In this document: positions 7,742 through 48,231 of the stretch, piece after piece
Layout of the letters: the number at the start of each line of letters is the position of its first letter
How positions within the stretch are numbered: position 1 is the stretch's first letter
Assembly: GCF_024582835.1 (NCBI RefSeq)
Contig: NZ_CP102097.1
Coordinates: forward strand, 806,001-870,000
DNA: 64,000 nucleotides
Direction: 5' to 3'
Source: Vibrio japonicus
Lineage (GTDB): Bacteria; Pseudomonadota; Gammaproteobacteria; Enterobacterales; Vibrionaceae
Position numbers and translations under genes: made by a program
Notes under the pieces: generated by a model
What the model was told of the DNA's origin: nothing
What the model saw: the letters and a program-made list of their open reading frames with translations, nothing else
Databases searched by the model: none

Positions 7742-9850
7742 TTAAAAATCTAGCTTATAAGCCAGTGTGATAGTTCGGCCTCTGCCTTTGAAGTAGAGGT
7801 CGTCATTTTTAAACGCGCTTTGAGAGTAATAAGTGAAATAGTCTTCATTGAGTAGGTTGGCAACAGAAAAGTTCATCTTACCCACGGGCAGTTGATAGCC
7901 CAAAGTCGCGTCGACTAAGGTAAAACCATCAAAATCGAGTTCTTTATCATCAAAGTCACGACTAAAGGCATGATTGGCTTGTAGCATAGACGTGAGCTCA
8001 TCATTCCATTGCGCAGTCCATGCGACTCTGAGCTTGTTCGGCGGGATATCTGATCCAGTTAGTTTGGTATCTACAGAACCGTCATCGTCGGTATCTGATT
8101 TGCCCTGAATGTATGAGTAGCCCGTGTCGATTTTATGGTTTTCTGTTAATTGGTAACCTAACGACGCTTCTACGCCATGAATTTCCTTTTTCTCGCGTTT
8201 TACTGTGTAGAGACCATTGCTCTCAACAATGCGGCTGCCAAGGTCGGAGTTAGATTCGTAGTAGCTGATTTCAAAGTCGATGTTTTCATTGTTAAAACGT
8301 ATTCCCCCTTCGTAGTTGTCTGTCACAATAGGAGACAAGTCGATAAGATCTTCGACATTTTGTCCTGGCGTATTCACGCCGCGCAAGACTCGTCCAACAT
8401 CAGGCATACCAAAGCCTTGCGAATAGTTAGCGAATAAACTTACACTCGGCAACACTCTTAAAACCGCACCAGCGTTATAGATCATCTCGTCAAATTCTGG
8501 CGATCCGCCTTCAACCGTGACGCTGTTTCGCGAGGCGACGGTTTGGTAAGTATCAATATCCAGCTTTGCATTTTCATAGCGGGCACCCGCTTGGAGCGTT
8601 AATCGTTCGATAGGCGTCAGCGAGAGCTGGATAAATGGTGCGTAGTTATCATAGGTGGTTTCAGGGACATATGTGCGACCCGTTAAGATCAATCTCTGAC
8701 TGGTTGTATCCCTAAGTAAATCTAAACCTACTGTTGTGTTCAGTTTGCCATTCAGTAATCCATTTTTGGATAGATTGAACTTGGCACCTATTTTTTCCGA
8801 TTCATTCTGTGATTGGTCATAAATGGTGTCTGGTGTGTTTGGATCTTGGAAACTCTTAGACGTTGCAGCGCCGTATCTTCCGGCAAAGTCTTGATAGAAC
8901 GCCTGTGTTTTCAGTTTCATGCCCATCACGTCGGTGTCTGTGTATTCCAAGTTGATGGTTTGTACTTGGTTAGAAGGGGCCTTACCTACCGGATTACCTT
9001 TGACCGAAGTAGTCGCAATGCCGTTTACTCGGTCACCTGTTACCGAGACATAATTCTTTTCCCCTGTCAGTTGGTAGCGGTTGTAGGAAAACTCAATATT
9101 TTGTTCATCGCTAAACCAATAGCCCAGTTTTGTAAAGGCATCGTAGCTTCGCGAGTCCATGATGTCACCGCGAGTGGTGTCCGCACCGATGTAGTCGCCA
9201 TTTGCGTCAAGAAAGACACCTTGCGTTTCGCCAGTAAGGCCGACTAAATAGTCAAAGTTATCTTTGGCCCCTTGAATCTGGTAACTGAGCTTATAGGACA
9301 TCGTATCACTGCTGATACGCTCTGTTGGTGCGGTCATTTGTACGCTGATATCTTGTTTCAACTCTTCTGAACTGTTTGATTTGGTAATAAAGTTGATGAT
9401 CCCCCCCGTTGCACCTAAGCCGTGAATCGCGCTGGCACCGTGGATCACTTCTATGCGTTCAACCATGGAAAGGTCAATGGTATGGGCAGAGCGACTGCCT
9501 TCTCGAAGAGGGTTTGACTGAGGCACGCCATCTATCATGTAGAGTACCGATCGTCCCCTAAAAGTTTGACTACTGTTATTGAGCTTTTGTGTGTTGAGAG
9601 AATATCCGGGTAGCAAGTTTGAAAGGACTTGTGAGCTGTCCGTTACGATGGAAAGCTGCGATTCAATTTGTTCTTTGGTTATGACAGTCACGACTTGAGG
9701 TGAGTCCTCCTGACGTGCGTCAATTCGGCTGGATTCCACAATGACGGCGTCAAATTCCGTAACGTCTGTTGCGAGTGCCAGTGGGGCGTGAGCGGCACAA
9801 ATGAGTGGTGCAATGGGCAAAAGTTTTCTTGGTGAAAGTGGGTAAAGCAT
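7742..9850 (-). CDS. TonB-dependent ferric siderophore receptor, IutA-like
   Basis: 702 residues; outer-membrane beta-barrel that takes up a ferric siderophore. Signal peptide about 1-28 (ends ALAT). A TonB-box-like DAVIVESS follows, then a plug domain (VVTVITKEQIES, VERIEVIHGASAIHGLGATGGIINFITK pattern) and a barrel ending in GRGRTITLAYKLDF with terminal Phe. The late segment YQLPVGKMNFSVANLLNEDY and the GRGRT ending resemble aerobactin receptor IutA and relatives, so a citrate- or hydroxycarboxylate-type siderophore is the best guess. Convergent with the ABC/reductase operon and preceded by a good Fur box. Exact ligand unknown. Confidence 0.85.
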   Translation of the reverse strand: MLYPLSPRKLLPIAPLICAAHAPLALATDVTEFDAVIVESSRIDARQEDSPQVVTVITKEQIESQLSIVTDSSQVLSNLLPGYSLNTQKLNNSSQTFRGRSVLYMIDGVPQSNPLREGSRSAHTIDLSMVERIEVIHGASAIHGLGATGGIINFITKSNSSEELKQDISVQMTAPTERISSDTMSYKLSYQIQGAKDNFDYLVGLTGETQGVFLDANGDYIGADTTRGDIMDSRSYDAFTKLGYWFSDEQNIEFSYNRYQLTGEKNYVSVTGDRVNGIATTSVKGNPVGKAPSNQVQTINLEYTDTDVMGMKLKTQAFYQDFAGRYGAATSKSFQDPNTPDTIYDQSQNESEKIGAKFNLSKNGLLNGKLNTTVGLDLLRDTTSQRLILTGRTYVPETTYDNYAPFIQLSLTPIERLTLQAGARYENAKLDIDTYQTVASRNSVTVEGGSPEFDEMIYNAGAVLRVLPSVSLFANYSQGFGMPDVGRVLRGVNTPGQNVEDLIDLSPIVTDNYEGGIRFNNENIDFEISYYESNSDLGSRIVESNGLYTVKREKKEIHGVEASLGYQLTENHKIDTGYSYIQGKSDTDDDGSVDTKLTGSDIPPNKLRVAWTAQWNDELTSMLQANHAFSRDFDDKELDFDGFTLVDATLGYQLPVGKMNFSVANLLNEDYFTYYSQSAFKNDDLYFKGRGRTITLAYKLDF

Positions 9851-36971: not shown

Positions 36972-38348
36972 ATGAATAGCAAACTCAAGCAACTAGCAGA
37001 CAACGTACGAAACGCCGTTGTTGCCGATCCAGACACTGGACGTTACCAGTGTGACCGTGGCATTTTCACCGATCGTGAACTGTTTGAACTGGAAATGAAG
37101 TACATCTTTGAAGGTAACTGGGTTTATCTTGCTCACGAAAGCCAAATTCCTAATCCAGGTGACTACTACTCAGTCACTGTCGGCAGACAGCCTGTTATCA
37201 TCACTCGAACCAAAGACGGCGATTTAAAAGCCATCCTCAATACGTGTACCCACCGTGGCGCAACTCTGTGCCGTAAGAAACGCGGTAACAAAGCTTCTTT
37301 TACTTGTCCGTTCCACGGATGGACCTTCCGCAACGACGGAAAACTACTCAAGGCGAAAGACCAGAAAAAGGGTGGGTATCCGGATCAATTCAATACTGAC
37401 GGTTCCCATGATTTGAAAGAGATGGCTAAGTTCGGGAACTATCGCGGATTTCTATTCGGTAGTTTAAGCGCCGATGTACTCCCATTAGAAGAGTATTTGG
37501 GTGAAACGACCAAAATCATCGATAACATTGTTGATCAAGCGGAAGATGGGTTGGAAATACTGCGCGGCAGTTCAACTTACACCTACGAAGGTAACTGGAA
37601 GTTAACAGCAGAGAATGGGGCTGATGGCTACCACGTGAGTTCAGTGCACTGGAACTACCTGTCAACTATGGGTCAGCGAAACTATGAAAAAGGCGGCACA
37701 GAGGCGGTAGATGCGAAAAGTTGGTCAGCGGAAGGCGGTTTCTACTCATTTGAAAACGGCCATATGATGCTTTGGACCCGCTTGTTAAACCCTGAGGTGC
37801 GTCCAGTTTTCGGCCAACTAGAGCGATTGGAAAAGACCTTTGGTGAGGCGAGAGCCGACTCTATCGTTCGCACGACCAAAAACCTATGTCTATATCCGAA
37901 TGTTTACTTGATGGATCAGTTCTCCACTCAAATCCGAGTCAGTCGTCCGATTGATGTGAACAAAACTGAAGTCACCATTTATGCCTTCGCGCCAAAGAAC
38001 GAATCAGCAGAATTACGTGCCAAGCGTATCCGTCAGTACGAAGATTTCTTCAATGTATCTGGCATGGGTACTCCTGACGATCTGGAAGAATTCCGCGCTT
38101 GCCAAGATGGATACGAAGCAAGAGGCGCACGATGGAATGACATGAGCCGCGGCGCAACGCACTGGATTGACGGCCCTGATGACCATGCAAACCAATTGGA
38201 TATGAAGCCTCTAATGAGCGGGACTAAACCGGAAGATGAAGGCCTATATGTGAATCACCACCGCCACTGGCAGGACGAAATGCTAAGAGCTATTGAAGCT
38301 GAATCTGACCAAATTATTCCGGTACTGAACAAGGAGACTGACGCATGA
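36972..38348 (+). CDS. benA: Benzoate 1,2-dioxygenase, large (alpha) subunit
   Basis: 458 residues. Catalytic subunit of the Rieske oxygenase that makes the cis-1,2-dihydrodiol of benzoate. Rieske cluster in CTHRG near 91-95 and CPFHGW near 112-117. Mononuclear iron His pair in [12 protein letters not shown] near 221 and 226, with the bridging Asp in ADGYH. The ring-hydroxylating C-terminal domain continues to 450. The gene overlaps benB by 4 nt (ATGA). Confidence 0.96.
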
Positions 38349-38836
38349 GCTTGAATTACCACGATATACAGCAGTTTATTAACCGTGAAGCCCGCTATCT
38401 CGATGATAAAGAGTGGGATAACTGGCTAGCGTGTTATCACAAAGATGTGACGTACTGGATGCCAGCATGGGATGACGATGAGGAGCTGACGGAAGATCCG
38501 CAGCGTGAGATCTCACTGATTTACTACCCGAACCGAGATGGCTTAGAAGACCGTGTATACCGATTGAAAACGGAACGTTCCGGTGCAAGCTCGTTGCCAG
38601 AACCGCGCACCAAACACTTTATTAGCGGGTTGGAGATCCTATCGCATGAAGGAAGTGAATTGCAGCTGCGTTTCAACTGGTTGACGAAGTCTTATCGCTA
38701 TAAGAAGACACAGGAATTTTACGGTACATCTTTTTACACCTTAGACATCAGCGGCGAAACCCCTTTAATCACGTACAAAAAAATTGTGCTGACTAACGAC
38801 TGCATCAATCAGGCGGTTGATGTTTACCACTTGTAA
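38345..38836 (+). CDS. benB: Benzoate 1,2-dioxygenase, small (beta) subunit
   Basis: 163 residues, NTF2-like fold partner of BenA needed for the hexameric oxygenase. [29 protein letters not shown] near residues 12-40 is the family's signature region and the C-terminus ends in VDVYHL. Start overlaps the benA stop. Confidence 0.94.
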
Positions 38837-38856
38837 TGGATTGCGGGAGCATCAAT

Positions 38857-39888
38857 ATGACTTATAACATTGCACTCAATTTCGAAGATGGCGTCACTCG
38901 TGTCATTAACTGTAACGACGGTGAGACGGTTCTCGATGCGGCATACCGCGCACAATTGAACCTGCCTATGGACTGTTCCGACGGAGTTTGCGGTACGTGT
39001 AAGGGCACTTGCCGTCAAGGAAAATACGATTTAGGCGAAGAGTATATCGACGAAGCGCTAACGGATGAAGAAGCTGAAAAAGGGCTTATCCTAACCTGTC
39101 AAATGGTGCCTTCCAGCGATTGTGTCGTCGAAATCCCAGCGGTTTCTTCAATGTGTAGTAAGGCCGCAAACAGCACAGTTACGGGAACTGTCGATGTGGT
39201 CAACCTCATATCGCCGACCGCTATCGAACTAAAAATTACCGCTGATAACGATATCGGCTTCCTACCTGGCCAGTACGTCAACATTCAGGTGCCAGGTAGT
39301 GATGAAACAAGAGCTTACTCTTTCAGCTCACTGCCAGGTAGCCGTCAATTGAGTTTCTTGATCCGAAATGTACCCGGCGGTCTGATGAGCTCTTGGCTGG
39401 TCGGTAAAGCTAAGTCCAACGATACCGTATCGTTAACTGGCCCAATGGGTGTGTTCTACTTACGTCCGGTTGAGCGCCCTGTCTTGATGCTTGCCGGTGG
39501 CACAGGATTGGCTCCGTTCCTTTCGATGCTAGAACACCTGAAGGAAAAAGGGTGCGATCAGCCAGTACATCTGATCTACGGCGTCACCAACGACGACGAT
39601 CTGGTGTGTGTATCAGCCTTGGAAGCCTTTGCCGCTAGTATTCCTAATTTCAGTTTTAAAACGGTTATCGCGAATGAAGAAAGCGATCATCCGCGCAAAG
39701 GATACGTGACCAATCATATGGAAGACGCGCCTTTCAATGACGGTGATGTTGACGTTTATCTTTGTGGCCCACCTCCGATGGTGAATGCGGTATTAGGTCA
39801 TTTCGAATCTCAGGGAATCAAACCGAATTCTTTCCATTACGAAAAATTCACTGCGAGTGTGACTCCTGCTTCTGAGGAGGCCGCATGA
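38857..39888 (+). CDS. benC: Benzoate 1,2-dioxygenase electron-transfer (ferredoxin reductase) component
   Basis: 343 residues from ATG 38857, which has GCGGGAG at a good distance; an earlier ATG at 38836 overlapping the benB stop lacks one. N-terminal plant-type 2Fe-2S ferredoxin (CSDGVCGTCKGTC near 40-52, last Cys in LTCQ near 84), FAD domain (RAYSFSSLP near 152) and NAD domain (GGTGLAPFLSML near 216 and CGPPPMV near 302). Passes electrons from NADH to BenAB. Confidence 0.95.
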   Translation: MTYNIALNFEDGVTRVINCNDGETVLDAAYRAQLNLPMDCSDGVCGTCKGTCRQGKYDLGEEYIDEALTDEEAEKGLILTCQMVPSSDCVVEIPAVSSMCSKAANSTVTGTVDVVNLISPTAIELKITADNDIGFLPGQYVNIQVPGSDETRAYSFSSLPGSRQLSFLIRNVPGGLMSSWLVGKAKSNDTVSLTGPMGVFYLRPVERPVLMLAGGTGLAPFLSMLEHLKEKGCDQPVHLIYGVTNDDDLVCVSALEAFAASIPNFSFKTVIANEESDHPRKGYVTNHMEDAPFNDGDVDVYLCGPPPMVNAVLGHFESQGIKPNSFHYEKFTASVTPASEEAA

Positions 39889-40664
39889 GTGCCCGCTTTA
39901 TCAATAAGGTCATGGTTGTCACTGGCGCCGCGCAAGGGATTGGTAAGCGCGTAGCAGAACTGGCTGCGAGTGAAGGCGCAAAGCTAGTTCTGGTTGATAT
40001 CGCCGACTATGTTCACGGCGTGGCCTCGCAACTGCAAGAGCAAGGCACGGAAGTACTGGCGCTTCAAGCTGACTTGGAAACATGGCAAGGCGCACAATCT
40101 GTCATGGAGAAAGCTTACGCACAATATGGTCGTATCGACATTCTCATCAACAATGTTGGTGGAACCATTTGGGCTCAGCCTTTTGAACACTATCAACCAG
40201 AGCAAATCGAGAAGGAAATACAGCGATCGCTCTTTCCAACTCTGTGGTGCTGCAGAGCAGCCATCCCATACATGTTAGAGCACCAAAGCGGGGCTATCGT
40301 GAATGTGTCATCTGTGGCCACCCGCGGTCTGATGCGAGTGCCTTACGGTGCTGCGAAGGGAGGCATTAATGCGCTAACAGTGAATATGGCATTCGAATAC
40401 GCTGAGCGTGGGATCAGAATCAACGCTACCGCACCAGGGGGAACTGAGGCGCCTACACGCTTGACGCCGCGTAATAGTGCACCTCAGAAGGAACAGGAAA
40501 AAGAGTGGTATCAATCCCTCGTCGAACAGACGAATGCCACTAGCTTTATGCATCGTTATGGAACACTCGATGAGCAGGCTGAACCGATCCTATTTTTGGC
40601 CTCTGATGCCGCTAGTTACATCACTGGCACAGTCCTTCCTGTTGCAGGGGGCGATTTGGGCTAG
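39885..40664 (+). CDS. benD: 1,6-dihydroxycyclohexa-2,4-diene-1-carboxylate dehydrogenase
   Basis: 259-residue short-chain dehydrogenase that oxidises and decarboxylates the benzoate cis-diol to catechol. NAD site TGAAQGIGKRV near 12-22, NNVGG near 89, Ser in VNVSSVATRG near 140 and Tyr/Lys in YGAAKGG near 154-158. It overlaps benC by 4 nt (ATGA), so benABCD is tightly coupled. Confidence 0.94.
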   Translation: MSARFINKVMVVTGAAQGIGKRVAELAASEGAKLVLVDIADYVHGVASQLQEQGTEVLALQADLETWQGAQSVMEKAYAQYGRIDILINNVGGTIWAQPFEHYQPEQIEKEIQRSLFPTLWCCRAAIPYMLEHQSGAIVNVSSVATRGLMRVPYGAAKGGINALTVNMAFEYAERGIRINATAPGGTEAPTRLTPRNSAPQKEQEKEWYQSLVEQTNATSFMHRYGTLDEQAEPILFLASDAASYITGTVLPVAGGDLG

Positions 40665-40729
40665 TGAATAACCGGAACGGGTTTTAATGACCTAAGTTCA
40701 CAAACTAAAGTACATGCAAGGAGAGCAAG

Positions 40730-40786
40730 ATGAACAACCAAAAGCAGCCTATTACCAACCACAATGAGGTGGCTGAGTATGAGTAG
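40730..40786 (+). CDS. Possible 18-codon leader ORF overlapping benK start
   Basis: ATG 40730 has a strong AAGGAGAG 6 nt before it and encodes MNNQKQPITNHNEVAEYE, ending in TAG at 40784-40786. The benK ATG at 40779 lies inside its last codons, in another frame. It may couple benK translation to ribosomes finishing the leader. No homologue is recognised; it may equally be a relic. Confidence 0.4.
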   Translation: MNNQKQPITNHNEVAEYE

Positions 40787-42101
40787 CATCAATATTACCG
40801 AGGTTGTCGATAACGCCAAATTTAACCGCTTTCACTGGAAGGTATTATTTTGGTGTACCTTAATCATCATTTTTGATGGCTACGATCTTGTCATTTATGG
40901 CGTAGTATTGCCTAAACTGATGAGTCAATGGGACCTAGACCCCTATGTTGCCGGTATGCTGGGAAGCGCCGCACTGTTTGGGATGATGTTCGGTGCGATG
41001 GGGTTCGGGATGCTGTCGGACAAACTTGGCCGGAAAAAAACCATACTGATGTGTGTGGTACTGTTTAGTGCAGTCAGCGCCGTGAATGGCTTAGCCAGCA
41101 CTCCATGGCAGTTCGGTATTCTGCGCTTTATCGCTGGCCTAGGTATCGGGGGAGTAATGCCTAATGTCGTCTCACTCATGACCGAATACTCGCCGAAAAA
41201 GAGCCGAAGTACATTGGTTGCATTGATGTTCTCTGGTTATGCCATCGGTGGGATGATGTCTGCAGGACTAGGTATCTGGATCGTACCCCGCTTCGGTTGG
41301 GAGATCATGTTCTTCCTTGCTGCGGTTCCGCTTGTGCTGTTGCCGCTGATGATCAAGCATTTGCCGGAATCACTGACATTCTTGGTTACGCAAAAGCGCG
41401 AGCAAGAAGCGCGTGAGTTACTCGTGAAGGTGGAGCCAAGCTGTGATAACAACAAGGACTCGGAGCTGGTTGTTGCATCTGCCCAAAAGGCTCAAGCTCC
41501 AGTATTAGAGCTATTCCGTGACGGACGTATGTTTAGCACGCTGATGTTTTGGACGGCGTTTTTCTGTTGTCTACTGATGGTTTACGCACTAGGCTCTTGG
41601 CTGCCAAAATTGATGTCCGTGGCGGGTTACGGATTAAGCTCAAGCCTGATGTTCCTAATGATACTCAATGTAGGTGCTATCATCGGTGCGGTCGGTGGTG
41701 GTTGGCTAGCGGATAAGTTCTCCCTACGCTCGGTCCTTGTGTGCTTCTTTATCCTTGGCTCTCTGTCGCTCATTATGCTCGGTTACAAGAACCCAACTTG
41801 GGTACTGTATACTCTCGTAGGTATTGCTGGTGCTGCGACTATTGGTTCCCAGATCCTGCTGTATGCGTATGTGGCTCAATACTACCCAACTCACATCCGA
41901 TCAACTGGTTTGGGCTGGGCATCTGGAGTTGGCCGTAACGGTGCCATTTTTGGTCCGATGGTTGGTGGTGCATTATTGGCCATGGCGCTTCCTCACCAGA
42001 TCAATTTCTTAGTACTGGCTGTACCAGGAGTTATCGCAACCATTTCAATGATATTCGTTGATCGAAACTTTAGCCGTCAGCCGCGCTCAGTAGAAGCGTA
42101 A
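40779..42101 (+). CDS. benK: Benzoate MFS transporter
   Basis: 440 residues from ATG 40779; GAGG 9 nt before it supports this start over ATG 40764. Aromatic-acid:H+ symporter family with 12 helices: VIYGVVLPKLM near 40 and LIIIFDGYDLV (membrane Asp motif of the family) near 30, loop DKLGRKKTI near 85. The N-terminus ITEVVDNAKFNRFHWKVLFW resembles BenK of Acinetobacter and Pseudomonas. Imports benzoate across the inner membrane. Last gene of the cluster, followed by a strong terminator. Confidence 0.93.
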   Translation: MSSINITEVVDNAKFNRFHWKVLFWCTLIIIFDGYDLVIYGVVLPKLMSQWDLDPYVAGMLGSAALFGMMFGAMGFGMLSDKLGRKKTILMCVVLFSAVSAVNGLASTPWQFGILRFIAGLGIGGVMPNVVSLMTEYSPKKSRSTLVALMFSGYAIGGMMSAGLGIWIVPRFGWEIMFFLAAVPLVLLPLMIKHLPESLTFLVTQKREQEARELLVKVEPSCDNNKDSELVVASAQKAQAPVLELFRDGRMFSTLMFWTAFFCCLLMVYALGSWLPKLMSVAGYGLSSSLMFLMILNVGAIIGAVGGGWLADKFSLRSVLVCFFILGSLSLIMLGYKNPTWVLYTLVGIAGAATIGSQILLYAYVAQYYPTHIRSTGLGWASGVGRNGAIFGPMVGGALLAMALPHQINFLVLAVPGVIATISMIFVDRNFSRQPRSVEA

Positions 42102-42829: not shown

Positions 42830-43204
42830 ATGAATCCAGTAGGCTGGTTTGAAATTTATGTTGATGACATGGAACGGGCGAAAGCATTCTACGAGGCGGT
42901 GTTTGAAGTCACGCTAGAGCAGATTGATGATCCCGCCAACGTCGGCATTGTGATGTGGGGCTTTCCATCGTCGATGGATCGATATGGCGCGACGGGTGCG
43001 TTGGCGAAGATGGAAGGTGTGCGAGCTGGTGGCAATAGCACGATGGTGTACTTCGCCTGTGAAGATTGCGCCACGGAAGAATCACGCGTGGTCGATGCGG
43101 GAGGAAGCGTGGAACATTCTAAGTTCTCAATCGGTAAATATGGCTGTATCTCAATCGTCAGTGATACCGAAGGGAATATGATTGGCTTGCATTCGATGAG
43201 TTGA
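42830..43204 (+). CDS. VOC-superfamily (glyoxalase/bleomycin-resistance fold) protein
   Basis: 124 residues, two beta-alpha-beta-beta-beta modules of the vicinal oxygen chelate fold. The start NPVGWFEIYVDDMERAKAFYEAVFEVTLE is the usual first module, and SIGKYGCISIVSDTEGNMIGLHSM ends the second. The metal-site Glu is often in the final segment, but a full set of His/Glu ligands is not obvious, so an enzyme activity is not claimed. Monocistronic. Confidence 0.85.
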   Translation: MNPVGWFEIYVDDMERAKAFYEAVFEVTLEQIDDPANVGIVMWGFPSSMDRYGATGALAKMEGVRAGGNSTMVYFACEDCATEESRVVDAGGSVEHSKFSIGKYGCISIVSDTEGNMIGLHSMS

Positions 43205-43270
43205 GGTGCAAGCAAACATAAGCGGAACATTGCAGCAAGTCGAAATCGCAATTCTGACTAATACCCTGAT

Positions 43271-43295
43271 TTCCAGCCATATTATATGGCTGGAA
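43271..43295. other. Perfect inverted repeat after VOC gene
   Basis: TTCCAGCCATAT and ATATGGCTGGAA are 12-bp arms around one base. It could be a hairpin terminator for the VOC gene, though no T-run follows, or a binding site. Confidence 0.5.
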
Positions 43296-43443
43296 GCATC
43301 CCTAAGACTCTTGCTTTGCGAGTTTCTTGCCCAATCGCTTGAATAGTTCCATTCAGATTCCTTAAACGTCTGCTTAGGCTCTTTTCCTAATCCATGTTTT
43401 AGGGTGTCATCCATCGTTATTCGTAATTTTCTCTCAGATAAAT

Positions 43444-43854
43444 CTATCGCATACGTACTACATTGGTCTCTTGTTGCTTTTTCATTTTCTCGAAGGTCAA
43501 GATGAATGGCTCAGATCGTTGTACATTCTGAGGCAACGTCTGGATTGCGCGATAAGCCTCATTTTTTGTTCTAAAGTCCCCAACGGTTACAGCATACCAA
43601 CGTGCTCCACGACTGGACTTCCAGTTTACCCATACCGGATAGTCGGGCTTAATATGACTAATATATTCTTGAATATCAGCTTGTTGCCTCAGCGCCAAAA
43701 CTTGCATGGTAAAGTGGTTAGAGTTCATATTCCCGTAAGCATCCTGAGAAGTCATGACACCGACGCATTGTGCTTCTGGAATTGAGTTGGGCATGGTACT
43801 GCATCCCAATAACATTAAACTGAGTAACAGAGGGGTGGCTCTTAATAGTTTCAT
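43444..43854 (-). CDS. Small lipoprotein with SPOR-like domain
   Basis: 136 residues. Lipobox LLGC with Cys at 18 after a hydrophobic signal. The mature region has two halves: HFTMQVLALRQQADIQEYIS and RWYAVTVGDFRTKNEAYRAIQTLP, the paired beta-alpha pattern and VGDFxxxxEA wording of SPOR peptidoglycan-binding domains. It is therefore likely to be an outer-membrane lipoprotein that touches the cell wall, perhaps at division sites. A basic tail ends in VVRMR. Stand-alone. Confidence 0.75.
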   Translation of the reverse strand: MKLLRATPLLLSLMLLGCSTMPNSIPEAQCVGVMTSQDAYGNMNSNHFTMQVLALRQQADIQEYISHIKPDYPVWVNWKSSRGARWYAVTVGDFRTKNEAYRAIQTLPQNVQRSEPFILTFEKMKKQQETNVVRMR

Positions 43855-44032
43855 ATTTTTCCCTAACTAATAATGACGGCTTACAACTACCTATTACTTA
43901 TAAGGCGACAGAAATCATGTAAGGTTTACCTGAATTTTCAGTTTATGACTGGTATGACATAGGATTTGATGTATGTAACTCGAATAGAAGGCGGAAGTTG
44001 TAGGGGTATGTTTGTAGTGACTTAGTGAATTT

Positions 44033-44190
44033 AGCCTCCAACATCGCGTTGGAGGCTCAGAACTTACACTAAGGTAGCAGCGGTTTGCTCGCCCATCTCA
44101 ATCAGATTATCAAGAATACGTTCGCCGTCAGCGCGCAGGCCATTGTGCTCGAACTCGTTGGTGATCCACGCTTTCGAATTTGGGATTAGC
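44033..44190. repeat. Direct repeat copy A: duplicated 3' end plus terminator of the alpha/beta hydrolase gene
   Basis: 158 bp that matches 46902-47059 with 7 mismatches (about 96% identity), in the same orientation, 2869 bp apart. It contains the terminator hairpin AGCCTCCAA/TTGGAGGCT and the last 42 codons of the hydrolase. It stops one base before the stop codon of the ATP-grasp gene. Confidence 0.93.
44064..44190 (-). pseudogene. Fragment of alpha/beta hydrolase gene (last 42 codons)
   Basis: In-frame remnant coding for the C-terminal end of the hydrolase at 46933-48231, with intact stop at 44064-44066. Five of the 7 differences from the full gene fall in the coding part, and four of these are synonymous (the fifth changes Lys to Asn). 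No start codon or upstream part remains, so it is not a functional gene. It lies directly downstream of the ATP-grasp ligase gene and may supply that gene's terminator. Confidence 0.9.
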
Positions 44191-44191
44191 A

Positions 44192-45643
44192 TCAGAAACC
44201 ACGCATTTGAATTCGTCGTAAAAATTCCGTGACAATCCGGTCATAAAGTAAATCACCCAAAAAGGCATCTTCAACATGATGGTCAATGCTTGGGTTGTCA
44301 TTGACTTCAATGACATAAGCTTTATCACCAATCTCTTTTACGTCAACGCCATAGATCCCATTGCTAATTAAATTCGCGGCTTTAGTCGCGGCATCAAGTA
44401 CATGTTTAGGGACATGTTTTATATCGAGCGTTTCAAAGCCACCAGAAGTAACCCTACCAGAATTATGGTGTTGATAAATTTGCCAATGGCCACGACTCAT
44501 TAAGTACTTGCACGCATAAATAGGTTGGCGATTAAGGATGCCTATTCGCCAATCGAAATCCGTTGGTAGATATTCTTGTGCCAGAATCAAAGCACTTTTC
44601 TCAAAAACCTTATCACACTGCTGCGTCAGCTCTTCGAGATTTTTGACTTTCACTACGCCAATGGAGAATGCACCATCCGGCACTTTTAGCACCATAGGGA
44701 AACCGATTTTGTTTACAACCTCTTCCAACTGCTCATTGGCACCCGCACGCAGAACCATACTATTTGGTACCGGCACTTTGTGTAAGGTCAGCAATTCCGT
44801 TAAAAACACTTTGTTCGTGCATTTCATGATCGACTCAGGGTCATCCATGACCACCAGCCCTAAGTTTTCCGCGGCTTTGGCAAACTTATACGTAAAGTTG
44901 GAGATATTGGTGGTAGCACGAATAAAGAGTCCATCAAACTCCCCAAGCCTACCCAAATCATCCGGCCCAATGATTTCCATATTAATCCCAATTCGATTAG
45001 CGGCACGTTGGAAACGTCGAATCGCTTTAGGATCGGAAGGCGGCATCTTTTCTTCTGGATCAATCAGTATGGCAATGTCATAACGATAGTTTTTGCTTTT
45101 CTTTTTCTTGCGCCAGACTTTGTTTGAAAACGACTCTAACGAGGAAGCAAAAAAATCCTGCTCACTATCGTTTAAAGATTGAAATGCACACGCTTCTAAG
45201 CGAGCCAATTGCCATTTATTGTTGACGCGGATAAAGCTTGCATCGAGCACTGGAACCATAAAGTGTTCAAATACTTGATGAGCGATTTTTTCCAACCCAG
45301 TGACTTCGGTTCGACCAAAGTAAATTTTGGCATCAATCTGATCTTGATCGCGAAAGTGCTTCTCAAAGTAAGTTTGCTTTAGGTTAAGCATAAATTGTTG
45401 AGTGAGGTCATTCATCGTCATCACTCTTGGGATGACTCGATGCCCTCGTGCCTCAGCCATTAAGGAGCAATAGTAACCATTACTCATATAATCATAAGAG
45501 CGACAAAGGTTGATTACTTGAATACTTTTGTTCTCGGTAAACGCGCCACTGGTAAGGTAATCATTTACAGACACAACATTTTCGGAAGGGAAGTACTGTT
45601 TCCAGTCACCTAGTTCATCAGTAACAATAAGGATGTTCGCCAT
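44192..45643 (-). CDS. RimK-type ATP-grasp ligase with N-terminal RLAN domain
   Basis: 483 residues from ATG 45643 (AGGAATT before it); an in-frame extension to 45694 lacks a site. The first about 150 residues (ILIVTDELGDWKQYFPSENVVSVNDYL onward) fit the RLAN domain found before RimK-type ligases. The ATP-grasp core follows: KVPDGAFSIGVVKV near 330 and VDVKEIGDKAYVIEVNDNPSIDHHVEDAF near 430-460, with the Mg-binding Glu/Asn in EVNDNPS. Such ligases join an amino acid to a carboxylate by way of an acyl phosphate. Divergent from a GNAT-C39 fusion; the pair is seen together in other proteobacteria and a peptide-modifying role has been suggested, but no substrate is known. Confidence 0.85.
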   Translation of the reverse strand: MANILIVTDELGDWKQYFPSENVVSVNDYLTSGAFTENKSIQVINLCRSYDYMSNGYYCSLMAEARGHRVIPRVMTMNDLTQQFMLNLKQTYFEKHFRDQDQIDAKIYFGRTEVTGLEKIAHQVFEHFMVPVLDASFIRVNNKWQLARLEACAFQSLNDSEQDFFASSLESFSNKVWRKKKKSKNYRYDIAILIDPEEKMPPSDPKAIRRFQRAANRIGINMEIIGPDDLGRLGEFDGLFIRATTNISNFTYKFAKAAENLGLVVMDDPESIMKCTNKVFLTELLTLHKVPVPNSMVLRAGANEQLEEVVNKIGFPMVLKVPDGAFSIGVVKVKNLEELTQQCDKVFEKSALILAQEYLPTDFDWRIGILNRQPIYACKYLMSRGHWQIYQHHNSGRVTSGGFETLDIKHVPKHVLDAATKAANLISNGIYGVDVKEIGDKAYVIEVNDNPSIDHHVEDAFLGDLLYDRIVTEFLRRIQMRGF

Positions 45644-45717
45644 CAGTTCAATTCCTGTTGAGAGATTTCTGTTTTTACTTTTAAATGACAGCATTAAAGC
45701 GAATAACCGAGGCTGAA

Positions 45718-46833
45718 ATGGAATACAGCAACGCTCAACTCGATGATTTAGATTCTCTGCTTCATTTGGAAAATCAAGTATTCACCAGTGACAATATAAA
45801 CCGTCGGCAAATGAAGCGGTTTATTCAGTCTCATCACTGTCAGTTCTTTGTCGCCAAAGAGAACGATCGACTTGCTGGATATGCACTCGTGCTTTTCAAC
45901 CAAGCGACGCAACTTGCACGAATCTACTCCATTGCAGTATCGCCAGATTTTAGAGGTCAAGGCATTGCAGACCAGTTGATTATCCAATGTGAGCAAAGCA
46001 CTGTGGAACGAGGCTACATTACTCTAAGGCTTGAAGTTAGGGAAGATAATTCAGCGGCTATACGTCTCTATGAAAAGCATGGATTTAAGCGATTAAAAAC
46101 CTTGATTCATTACTACGATGGCCTGATAGATGGACTGAGGATGCAGAAACGTCTTGGTACATTAGGTCCCACACTCGCGCTGTCGATGCCGTTGTATGTT
46201 CAAACGCTTCCATTCACATGTGGTGCAGCGTGTCTGCTTATGAGTTTTGCCGCACTCGGGCACTCAACATCGCCTTCGCGCAAGAAGGAAGTACAGCTTT
46301 GGCGTGAAGCCACAACGATTTTTATGGCAGGCGGTCATGGTGGTTGTAGTGGGCAAGGTTTAGCACTTGCCGCAAATCGACGTGGCTTTGCTGTCGAGCT
46401 GTGGTCTCACTCGCGAGGGACACCTTTTATTCACTCCGTTCGTGACCCATTGAAAAAATCTGTGATCGAGCTGGTCCATGCCGACTTTATGGATCAAATC
46501 GAGCAGACCGATATTAAAGTTGAGCAAGCCCCTCCGCACATTCCGCAAATAGAAAACTGGATTGAACAGGGGGCAGCGGTGTTATTGCTGATTAGCACCT
46601 ACCGATTTAATGGGTGTAAAGAGCCCCACTGGATTGTGCTCAGCGGTATGAGCGACCACTTTTTTTACTTTCATGACCCATTGGTCGAAGAAGCACAAGA
46701 CGCTGTCACGGCTGCATATGTGCCAATAGGTAAGAGCGCTCTAGAGCAGATTGTTGGTTTTGGAAAACAAAAGCATACGGCTTGTGTTGTTATATTCCCC
46801 AAAGAAGTCCAAACAAGTGTGGTCAACGACTAG
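45718..46833 (+). CDS. GNAT acetyltransferase fused to C39-like peptidase domain (DUF3335 type)
   Basis: 371 residues from ATG 45718; ATG 45685 is possible but lacks a ribosome site and would leave only 41 bp for two divergent promoters. Residues about 1-140 are a GNAT domain (SIAVSPDFRGQGIADQLI near 82, acetyl-CoA loop RGQGIA; NSAAIRLYEKHGFKRLK). Residues about 160-365 resemble the C39 peptidase-like family: Cys in LPFTCGAACLLMSF near 174, His in EPHWIVLSGM near 303, Asp in FHDPLV near 318. This is a papain-like triad layout. Together with the divergent ATP-grasp ligase it suggests a small peptide tailoring system (ligate, acetylate, cleave). That activity is inference. Confidence 0.85.
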   Translation: MEYSNAQLDDLDSLLHLENQVFTSDNINRRQMKRFIQSHHCQFFVAKENDRLAGYALVLFNQATQLARIYSIAVSPDFRGQGIADQLIIQCEQSTVERGYITLRLEVREDNSAAIRLYEKHGFKRLKTLIHYYDGLIDGLRMQKRLGTLGPTLALSMPLYVQTLPFTCGAACLLMSFAALGHSTSPSRKKEVQLWREATTIFMAGGHGGCSGQGLALAANRRGFAVELWSHSRGTPFIHSVRDPLKKSVIELVHADFMDQIEQTDIKVEQAPPHIPQIENWIEQGAAVLLLISTYRFNGCKEPHWIVLSGMSDHFFYFHDPLVEEAQDAVTAAYVPIGKSALEQIVGFGKQKHTACVVIFPKEVQTSVVND

Positions 46834-46897
46834 TGGAAGGAACAACCTTATGTAAAGCAATGAGTGACTGTGGACAGAGGCCGTCTAGATTATTGTT

Positions 46898-46926
46898 AAA
46901 AAGCCTCCAATATCGCGTTGGAGGCT
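46898..46926 (-). terminator. Terminator of alpha/beta hydrolase gene
   Basis: AGCCTCCAA (46902-46910) and TTGGAGGCT (46918-46926) form a 9-bp stem; minus-strand tail is a T-run (AAAA at 46898). Confidence 0.8.
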
Positions 46927-47059
46927 CAGGACTTACACTAAGGTAGCAGCGGTTTGCTCGCCCATCTCAATCAGCTTATCGAGAATACGTTCGCCGTCAG
47001 CGCGCAGGCCATTGTGTTCGAACTCATTGGTGATCCACGCTTTCGAATTTGGGATCAGC
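46902..47059. repeat. Direct repeat copy B within the intact hydrolase gene and its terminator
   Basis: Partner of 44033-44190 (about 96% identity). Here it belongs to the complete gene; the sequences part at 47060, inside codon territory of the hydrolase. Confidence 0.93.
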
Positions 47060-48231
47060 GCTAGCGTCTCGCGGCTGATGTCCATTTCCACAAACATATC
47101 ATCGGCGTACACCGCGCAGCTTACCGGAACCTTGTTGTTTGCCAGTTGCTCTGCGTTATAGAGCGGGCTCCAATCTTCTTTCTCTGCCAAAATTTGTGCG
47201 GCTTGTTTAAGCGGTTTTAAGCACTCGTATTGGTCGAACATCCACGGGAATACCATCTCACCCGTAAAGTAGAACGGTTGCCCTTGTTGATAGTTGAATT
47301 CTTCACGGCTTTGACGCACGCGATGCGCACTCCAGTTAGACGCAAAGCCTTGGCAGTAAATCGATTCATGCAAAATCGCATAGATAGGATTGGTCTGGAA
47401 ACCTTGCTGCATCAGCATACTGTTTAAGAACTCATAGCGAAGCTGAGGCTCGCCATTCACCGTCACAAAGGCATTTTCCAGTTGGTAGTATGTCGGTAAG
47501 AAGGTATCACTCATACCGAAGTTAATGCCAATCTGCTGAAACTGCTCAACGGTAAAGCGTTGGCCGTTAGGCAGAAACTCTTCGTTTTCTAGCAAATGGT
47601 CGGCAATCTTTTGGCACATCTGCTGCGCTTGTGGGAATTGCTGGAAGAACGCCTGATTCTTTTCCATCGTGCGTTTAAAGGTCGCTTCATACACATCATC
47701 TGGATGGCGTGAAATCGACGGCACACCACCGGTGATGTAGCTGCGCGATAGGCTTTCAGGGAACAGAGAGAGGTAAGTAAGCGAGCAGAAACCGCCGAAG
47801 CTCTGGCCTAAAATCGCCCATTGGTCGACATTAAATTGCTGGCGGATAAATTCTGCGTCACGCACGATGTTGTCTGCGCGGAAATGAGCGAGGTATTCTG
47901 CCTGCTCTTCTGCGCTCAAATGGCCGAGCGTTTGGCTGTGGATGACCGAGCTATTACCCGTACCGCGCTGGTCGAGCAGAAGGATACGGTATTGCTGCAA
48001 AACGCGCTTTACCCAGCCATTATTGCCATTTTGGCGTGGTGATGGAAAGCCAGGACCACCTTGAAAGTACACCAGCCACGGTTTCGTACTTTCGCCATCT
48101 GAAACGAGTGATAGCTCGCGTGCAAACACCTCAATTTGGCCTTTGCTTTCGTTGGAGTAATCCAAAGGAACTTGGAAAGTATGTGGAGTGTATTTCACTC
48201 CTGCATCTGTAAATTCTAGAGCATTCATCAT
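46933..48231 (-). CDS. Alpha/beta-fold hydrolase, proline iminopeptidase-like
   Basis: 432 residues, long form of the prolyl aminopeptidase-like family. HG-region PWLVYFQGGPGFPSPRQNG near 52-70, LLDQRGTGNSS near 86, nucleophile Ser in AILGQSFGGFCSLTYLS near 140, Asp in VSCAVYADDMFVE near 365 and His in FEHNGLRADGERIL near 405 give the catalytic triad. It would remove N-terminal residues (Pro preferred) from peptides in the cytoplasm; no signal peptide. Start at 48231 or at the next ATG 48228. Its 3' end is duplicated at 44 kb. Confidence 0.87.
   Translation of the reverse strand: MMNALEFTDAGVKYTPHTFQVPLDYSNESKGQIEVFARELSLVSDGESTKPWLVYFQGGPGFPSPRQNGNNGWVKRVLQQYRILLLDQRGTGNSSVIHSQTLGHLSAEEQAEYLAHFRADNIVRDAEFIRQQFNVDQWAILGQSFGGFCSLTYLSLFPESLSRSYITGGVPSISRHPDDVYEATFKRTMEKNQAFFQQFPQAQQMCQKIADHLLENEEFLPNGQRFTVEQFQQIGINFGMSDTFLPTYYQLENAFVTVNGEPQLRYEFLNSMLMQQGFQTNPIYAILHESIYCQGFASNWSAHRVRQSREEFNYQQGQPFYFTGEMVFPWMFDQYECLKPLKQAAQILAEKEDWSPLYNAEQLANNKVPVSCAVYADDMFVEMDISRETLALIPNSKAWITNEFEHNGLRADGERILDKLIEMGEQTAATLV

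Follow-up and report, generated by a model that had tools for sequence, protein, structure and literature searches.

Known gene-end duplications and the locus in Vibrio japonicus

In E. coli K-12, prophage e14 leaves behind a displaced end of its target gene icd, termed icdC, which comprises 165 bp and carries 12 exchanges with two conservative amino-acid changes, as given in PMC11148124. For conjugation in E. coli, PMC3240628 reports a duplication-diagnostic polymerase chain reaction product in 56 of 60 screened clones; 14 clones were sequenced, with duplications of 109-950 bp that were attributed to a circle which had been shortened and then integrated by one crossover. Here, a stretch of 64,000 nucleotides from Vibrio japonicus was analysed (assembly GCF_024582835.1, contig NZ_CP102097.1, positions 806,001 to 870,000), referred to as the window. 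In the window, the 3' end of an alpha/beta hydrolase gene occurs twice, once in place and once behind a ligase gene that forms a divergent pair with a GNAT-C39 fusion gene. The best reading of this locus, held with just under even confidence, is a RecA-dependent single-crossover integration of donor DNA that had been circularised at 3-5 bp of microhomology. Events of this kind are already known, and what is new is the example at this locus.

A direct repeat of the hydrolase gene end encloses the pair

The copies of the repeat and the genes concerned are located as follows (window coordinates; evidence in brackets; ORF, open reading frame).

44033..44190, minus strand: copy A, the last 127 nt of the hydrolase gene and 31 nt with a hairpin, alone behind the ligase gene (repeat search, alignment)
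44192..45694, minus strand: RLAN and RimK-like ATP-grasp ligase (ORF, Pfam, relatives)
45685..46833, plus strand: fusion of GNAT and DUF3335 (papain-like, C39-like), transcribed away from the ligase gene (ORF, Pfam)
46834..46901, no strand: spacer between fusion gene and copy B (ORF list)
46902..47059, minus strand: copy B, the hydrolase 3' end in place, with hairpin and T-run (repeat search, alignment)
46933..48231, minus strand: alpha/beta hydrolase gene, full length, 432 aa (ORF, Pfam)

Alignment bore out the earlier note's claim of a 158-bp direct repeat of the hydrolase 3' end with 7 mismatches and a unit of 2869 bp. Copies A and B lie in the same orientation at a spacing of 2869 and are identical without gaps at 151 of 158 positions, and identity breaks off sharply at both ends. 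The repeat comprises the final 41 sense codons of the hydrolase, its stop codon and one further base (together 127 nt), followed by 31 non-coding nucleotides that contain the hairpin. Likewise, the distance of one base between repeat and ligase stop holds, since the stop codon occupies 44192-44194 on the minus strand and copy A, which extends to 44190, begins one base past it as the gene is transcribed. Copy B, searched against the whole genome (4.24 Mb), revealed no places beyond A and B, with copy A at E = 2.3e-68, which rules out a chance or dispersed repeat. A second copy of 46800-46903, the region of the spacer, was not found in the same genome. An assembly artefact is unlikely, considering that the copies differ at 7 sites and that the contig is a single 1.44-Mb piece.

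All five coding mismatches between A and B are located at codon position 3; four are synonymous, as had been claimed, and one exchanges K for N. The remaining two fall into the 31 non-coding bases. Five of five changes at third positions would occur with P = 0.0038 if unconstrained (43 third positions among 127 bases), and at least four of five silent changes with P = 0.011, 0.019, and 0.028 at a transition bias of 1, 2, and 4, respectively. For the 41 codons of the tail, dS is 0.156 and dN 0.011, compared to a hydrolase dS of 1.53 towards G180, the closest relative of this genome. Due to the third-position and silent pattern, A and B have the appearance of alleles of one working gene. The simplest reading of the alignment is that A and B were ends of working genes in different strains while they diverged, and the pattern fits the earlier note's suggestion that copy A diverged inside a working gene.

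Hairpins are present at both copies according to folding (z -3.2 for A and -1.9 for B), and a terminator pattern scan listed neither of them. The hairpin is followed by TTTTT at copy B only, and by AAATT at copy A. The hairpin of copy A may serve the ligase transcript.

Proposed route of integration

According to the reading preferred here, the pair would have been donated by a different strain, either conspecific or of a very near species. The donated DNA, comprising hydrolase 3' end, spacer, and pair, would have been closed into a circle at a shared GCT or GCTGA, where the bases that directly follow the ligase stop (TGATGCT) became joined to the hydrolase gene at 127 nt from its end. By RecA, this arm of 158 bp would then have undergone one crossover with the hydrolase 3' end already present in the recipient, giving an intact hydrolase gene with end B, followed by the pair and by the second end A behind the ligase. 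The same repeats should allow RecA to excise the pair again as a 2869-bp circle. A direct repeat of the homologous arm is present on both sides of the insert, as single-crossover (Campbell-type) integration requires. Behind the ligase, the related copy of Vibrio sp. Hep-1b-8 has the sequence TGATGCTGAAG and that of the window TGATGCTAATCCC; copy B starts with GCTGATCCC. Three bases (GCT) are shared at the joint, or five (GCTGA) if the fourth base of copy A changed later.

The ligase/GNAT-C39 pair and its distribution

The domains named in the earlier note, i.e., RLAN and RimK-like ATP-grasp for the ligase, GNAT and DUF3335 (C39-like) for the fusion, and SPOR for a neighbouring lipoprotein gene, were all found by Pfam. 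Since most relatives match from approximately residue 17-18, the ligase start is likely codon 18 (ATG, 45643). An adjacent divergent pair was observed in 47 of 48 other loci, that is, in all 47 with an uncut ligase; the exception, L130, is a deleted remnant. Among 48 alignment rows, C179, H315, and D331 of the fusion are each conserved throughout or replaced in a single row, and presumably they represent the catalytic residues of the papain-like part. Compared to the copy of Vibrio sp. S9_S30, dN/dS is 0.03 for the ligase and 0.04 for the fusion, both rough values with dS near 2. As to function, an acyltransferase or ligase role is suggested in PMC10318531.

The distribution of the pair is sporadic. 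A ligase occurs in 48 of 196 genomes of the genus (E <= 1e-60), mostly at 62-68% identity, and the window's subfamily is intact in 2 of 227 genus genomes (E <= 1e-235) and in 3 of 329 family genomes (E <= 1e-238). Further ligase protein clusters are found at 79-93%, e.g., in Vibrio sp. FJH11 and YIC-376. Of the loci found, the three closest, with 84-93% ligase identity, have the pair elsewhere and not at the hydrolase gene. It adjoins genes that we take to be related to phosphate transport in Vibrio sp. S9_S30 and presumably a symporter-like gene in Vibrio sp. Hep-1b-8; in Enterovibrio sp. JCM 19048, its neighbours are an ABC transporter gene and a gene of the MATCAP family. The copy of Vibrio sp. 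Hep-1b-8 (L077:8959-10179), in its different place, is a remnant of the pair with an internal deletion. The MATCAP-family gene (PF08014; L084:5684-6940, minus strand) is situated beside the pair in one of 48 loci. The ABC gene next to the Enterovibrio pair is a 73% homologue of one located 2.6 kb from the neighbourhood of the pair in the window, with differing order and orientation, which may be coincidence.

Several origins and roles were considered and set aside. A defence system was dropped after PADLOC gave no match for three proteins. With respect to a viral origin of the ligase, six peptide patterns matched no viral contig, a search that covers close relatives only. Twelve plasmid records gave 44% at best, and 14 phage records matched a portion of the ATP-grasp region at 22.7-25.2%. 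A location on a plasmid-labelled replicon was likewise rejected, with one record only that covers 14% of the query at 76%.

Horizontal transfer is supported by fourfold-degenerate sites. Between the window and Vibrio sp. Hep-1b-8, these differ at 105/154 sites in the hydrolase, 33/41 in the glyoxalase, 40/58 in arfB, and 56/92 in the pirin gene, compared to 24/72 in the ligase piece and 2/17 and 16/31 in the two fusion pieces, the latter value being not far below those of the neighbour genes. Being less diverged at silent sites than these four genes, the pair appears to have split more recently than the genomes did, which supports its horizontal transfer; similarity between the window and Hep-1b-8 stops no more than some bases from either stop codon. 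The same comparison disfavours vertical descent, with loss elsewhere, for the Hep-1b-8 copy. It may apply to the copies of Vibrio sp. S9_S30 or Enterovibrio: ligase silent sites are saturated (92/158 fourfold sites towards S9_S30), so that a recent exchange with S9_S30 cannot be claimed, and between this genome and S9_S30 the ABC protein, with 82% identity, comes close to the 89% of the ligase. Altogether, acquisition of the pair at this locus is supported by these sequence comparisons.

The hydrolase-glyoxalase site in other genomes

On the far side of copy A, two further features are needed for the comparison.

42830..43204, plus strand: glyoxalase-like gene, which lies next to the hydrolase gene and converges with it in seven empty-site genomes (Pfam, genome comparison)
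43205..44032, no strand: segment with a SPOR lipoprotein gene (43444-43854, minus strand) (Pfam, comparison of loci)

Among the 196 genus genomes, the hydrolase was found in 148 (E <= 1e-60) and the glyoxalase in 69 (E <= 1e-30); in 14 genomes, this one included, both are located at most 10 kb apart on one contig. In seven of these (G029, G033, G047, G068, G070, G128, and G132) the two genes are convergent, 38-67 bp apart, with nothing between them, which agrees with the view that the pair is a newcomer at this site. Filled gaps comprise 3.7 kb in this genome, 5.2 kb in G180, 2.4 kb in G114, G147, and G186, 2.8 kb in G161, and 6.9 kb in G012. Neither the pair nor the SPOR gene is among the gap ORFs of G180, G147, G161, and G012, the four gaps that were read, and none of the six other filled-gap genomes has a second hydrolase tail. 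Direct repeats of at least 30 nt were absent from the searched parts of L063, L067, and L068. Gap contents vary by species (L063:8290-13486 in G180, L068:4645-7447 in G161, L067:5143-7580 in G147, L080:256-7123 in G012). Due to these different genes across species, the gap is taken to acquire DNA repeatedly.

The exact empty site proposed in the earlier note, i.e., the hydrolase gene with a single 3' end beside the SPOR gene, was not seen in 29 other hydrolase loci. The pair was not found between the same two genes in all close relatives either, an arrangement that the note had held to speak against an insertion. The SPOR gene was downstream of the hydrolase in none of these 29 loci, with 1.5-11 kb of downstream DNA each, and for this reason the SPOR segment is read as a separate insertion, which it probably is. 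Its G+C content is 40.9%, compared to 46.6% for the window, and relatives of the SPOR gene occur elsewhere in 25 of 195 other genomes, the best being two copies in G173 (81 and 77%).

Apart from this site, the region 36972-42101 contains in a row genes that we take to encode a Rieske dioxygenase-like protein, a small subunit, a reductase, a dehydrogenase, and a transporter, and that resemble a benzoate-type degradation cluster.

Alternative explanations

Several observations weigh against integration of a donor circle. Neither a single-copy recipient nor a donor was seen, the comparison covering genomes of other species. Taking G180 as outgroup places four coding changes on A and the fifth on B, a polarity that is also expected of a decaying duplicate, and the codon-position test is based on these five changes. 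The microhomology is short and was read against one relative, which is a broken copy at another place. The hydrolase identity to G180 displays no sharp step near the gene end, and competence of this Vibrio is hypothetical. Copy A has no T-run; since the hydrolase hairpins of G047 and G132 are also without a clean T-run, this weighs little.

The main rival is the remnant of a site-specific element in the hydrolase 3' end that brought its own replacement end and lost its integrase, the pair being cargo; we consider it unlikely, yet the foremost alternative. Its anatomy would be that of e14 in icd, with a duplicated 3' end and an intact target gene. Integration at the 3' end with regeneration of the target, to which the earlier note likened the locus, may account for it, but a truncated circle and one crossover leave the same anatomy without an integrase and have an experimental precedent in the E. 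coli clones. In line with that note, no integrase of the family PF00589 is located nearby: no match lies between the copies and the nearest is approximately 157 kb away, PF00589 being the only family searched, with other recombinase families (serine recombinases, transposases) unsearched. Further points against a site-specific element are the profiles of the pair, which belong to general ligase and acetyltransferase families, none of them phage-specific, and the lack of a close relative of the pair in viral contigs. Moreover, a second tail-like match occurs in one of 147 other hydrolase-bearing genus genomes, G134, and is weak. With this genome, such a match is present in 2 of 148, and because only G134 has such a match, the hydrolase end is read as a non-recurrent target. 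The relic of G134 (L142:9162-9245, minus strand) stands alone on a contig other than that of the hydrolase, beside a very large gene, and comprises 28 residues at 50%. The ORF list of the unit contains no further large ORF besides the pair and overlapping frames. Unlike a transposon with terminal inverted repeats, the unit has no inverted pair of at least 20 nt at its ends, the only lengths covered by the search.

Also unlikely, and ranked next, is a local event, in which the pair was inserted otherwise, a unit from hydrolase end to ligase was tandem-duplicated at the microhomology, and the second pair was deleted so that A was left. No donor of particular arrangement would be needed, the loss of the T-run at A would mark the end of the deletion, and most coding changes polarise to A. 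Decay in place, however, should hit all codon positions, and none of the five changes is at positions 1 or 2; the scheme also takes a longer series of events, except if another strain later supplied a replacement for one of the copies. We give little credence to one-sided transformation (homology-facilitated illegitimate recombination), in which a linear donor would have used hydrolase homology on one side, an illegitimate joint on the other, and the sister chromosome, whereby the hydrolase end of the recipient was retained. According to PMC3240628, this process has been described for three competent species and most of its joints display microhomology of 3-10 bp, but its usual product is an insertion with deletion and not a duplication.

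Could the pair itself be a mobile unit, the flanking direct repeats being part of its movement? This seems highly improbable. Repeats across the pair were tested at 49 loci (the window and 48 others, L096 with only 497 bases on one side), and they are close on both sides in three: the window (gaps of 72 and 5 bases), L111 (184 bp, 91%), and L112 (76 bp, 100%). At 43 of the 49 loci no repeat spans the pair, and those of L104, L105, and L127 are farther off or weak. The repeats of L111 and L112 are located between genes and have, partial ones included, 19 and 21 matches in their respective genomes, and in L107, L109, and L110 the same two neighbours enclose the pair but repeats of this kind are absent. 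In position, they hug the pair at L111:6637-6820 and 9476-9656 (Vibrio sp. CK2-1) and at L112:6744-6819 and 9471-9546 (V. litoralis). Repeats around the pair at other loci are thus no proof of a mobile unit. Even less credence than one-sided transformation is given to the idea that the 2869-bp unit is a portable cassette free of a recombinase, which would use a host gene end as arm and terminator, form a circle by RecA, and re-enter harmlessly at the hydrolase gene of any conspecific strain.

Implications and comparison with known systems

With these alternatives considered, the acquisition of the pair by a donor circle and a single crossover stands at about even odds. The locus would then be a natural footprint of how a small gene pair enters a chromosome without a recombinase of its own, with the target gene intact and the hairpin borrowed. 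If conspecific strains had the empty site and intact genes with the silent changes of copy A, the route would become testable at a natural locus, and integrase-free gene-end duplications need not mean decayed prophages.

The locus resembles e14 and icdC in that the target gene is intact and the displaced 3' end lies on the far side of the insert (165 bp in e14, 158 bp here), and in that the differences spare the reading frame and nearly all residues. It differs from e14 by containing two genes only, with no PF00589 gene within approximately 157 kb. With the integration of shortened circles in E. coli it shares an insert at whose two sides a portion of the target gene is directly repeated; there, the incoming DNA was a laboratory plasmid, whereas here we infer a natural event with two alleles of the arm.

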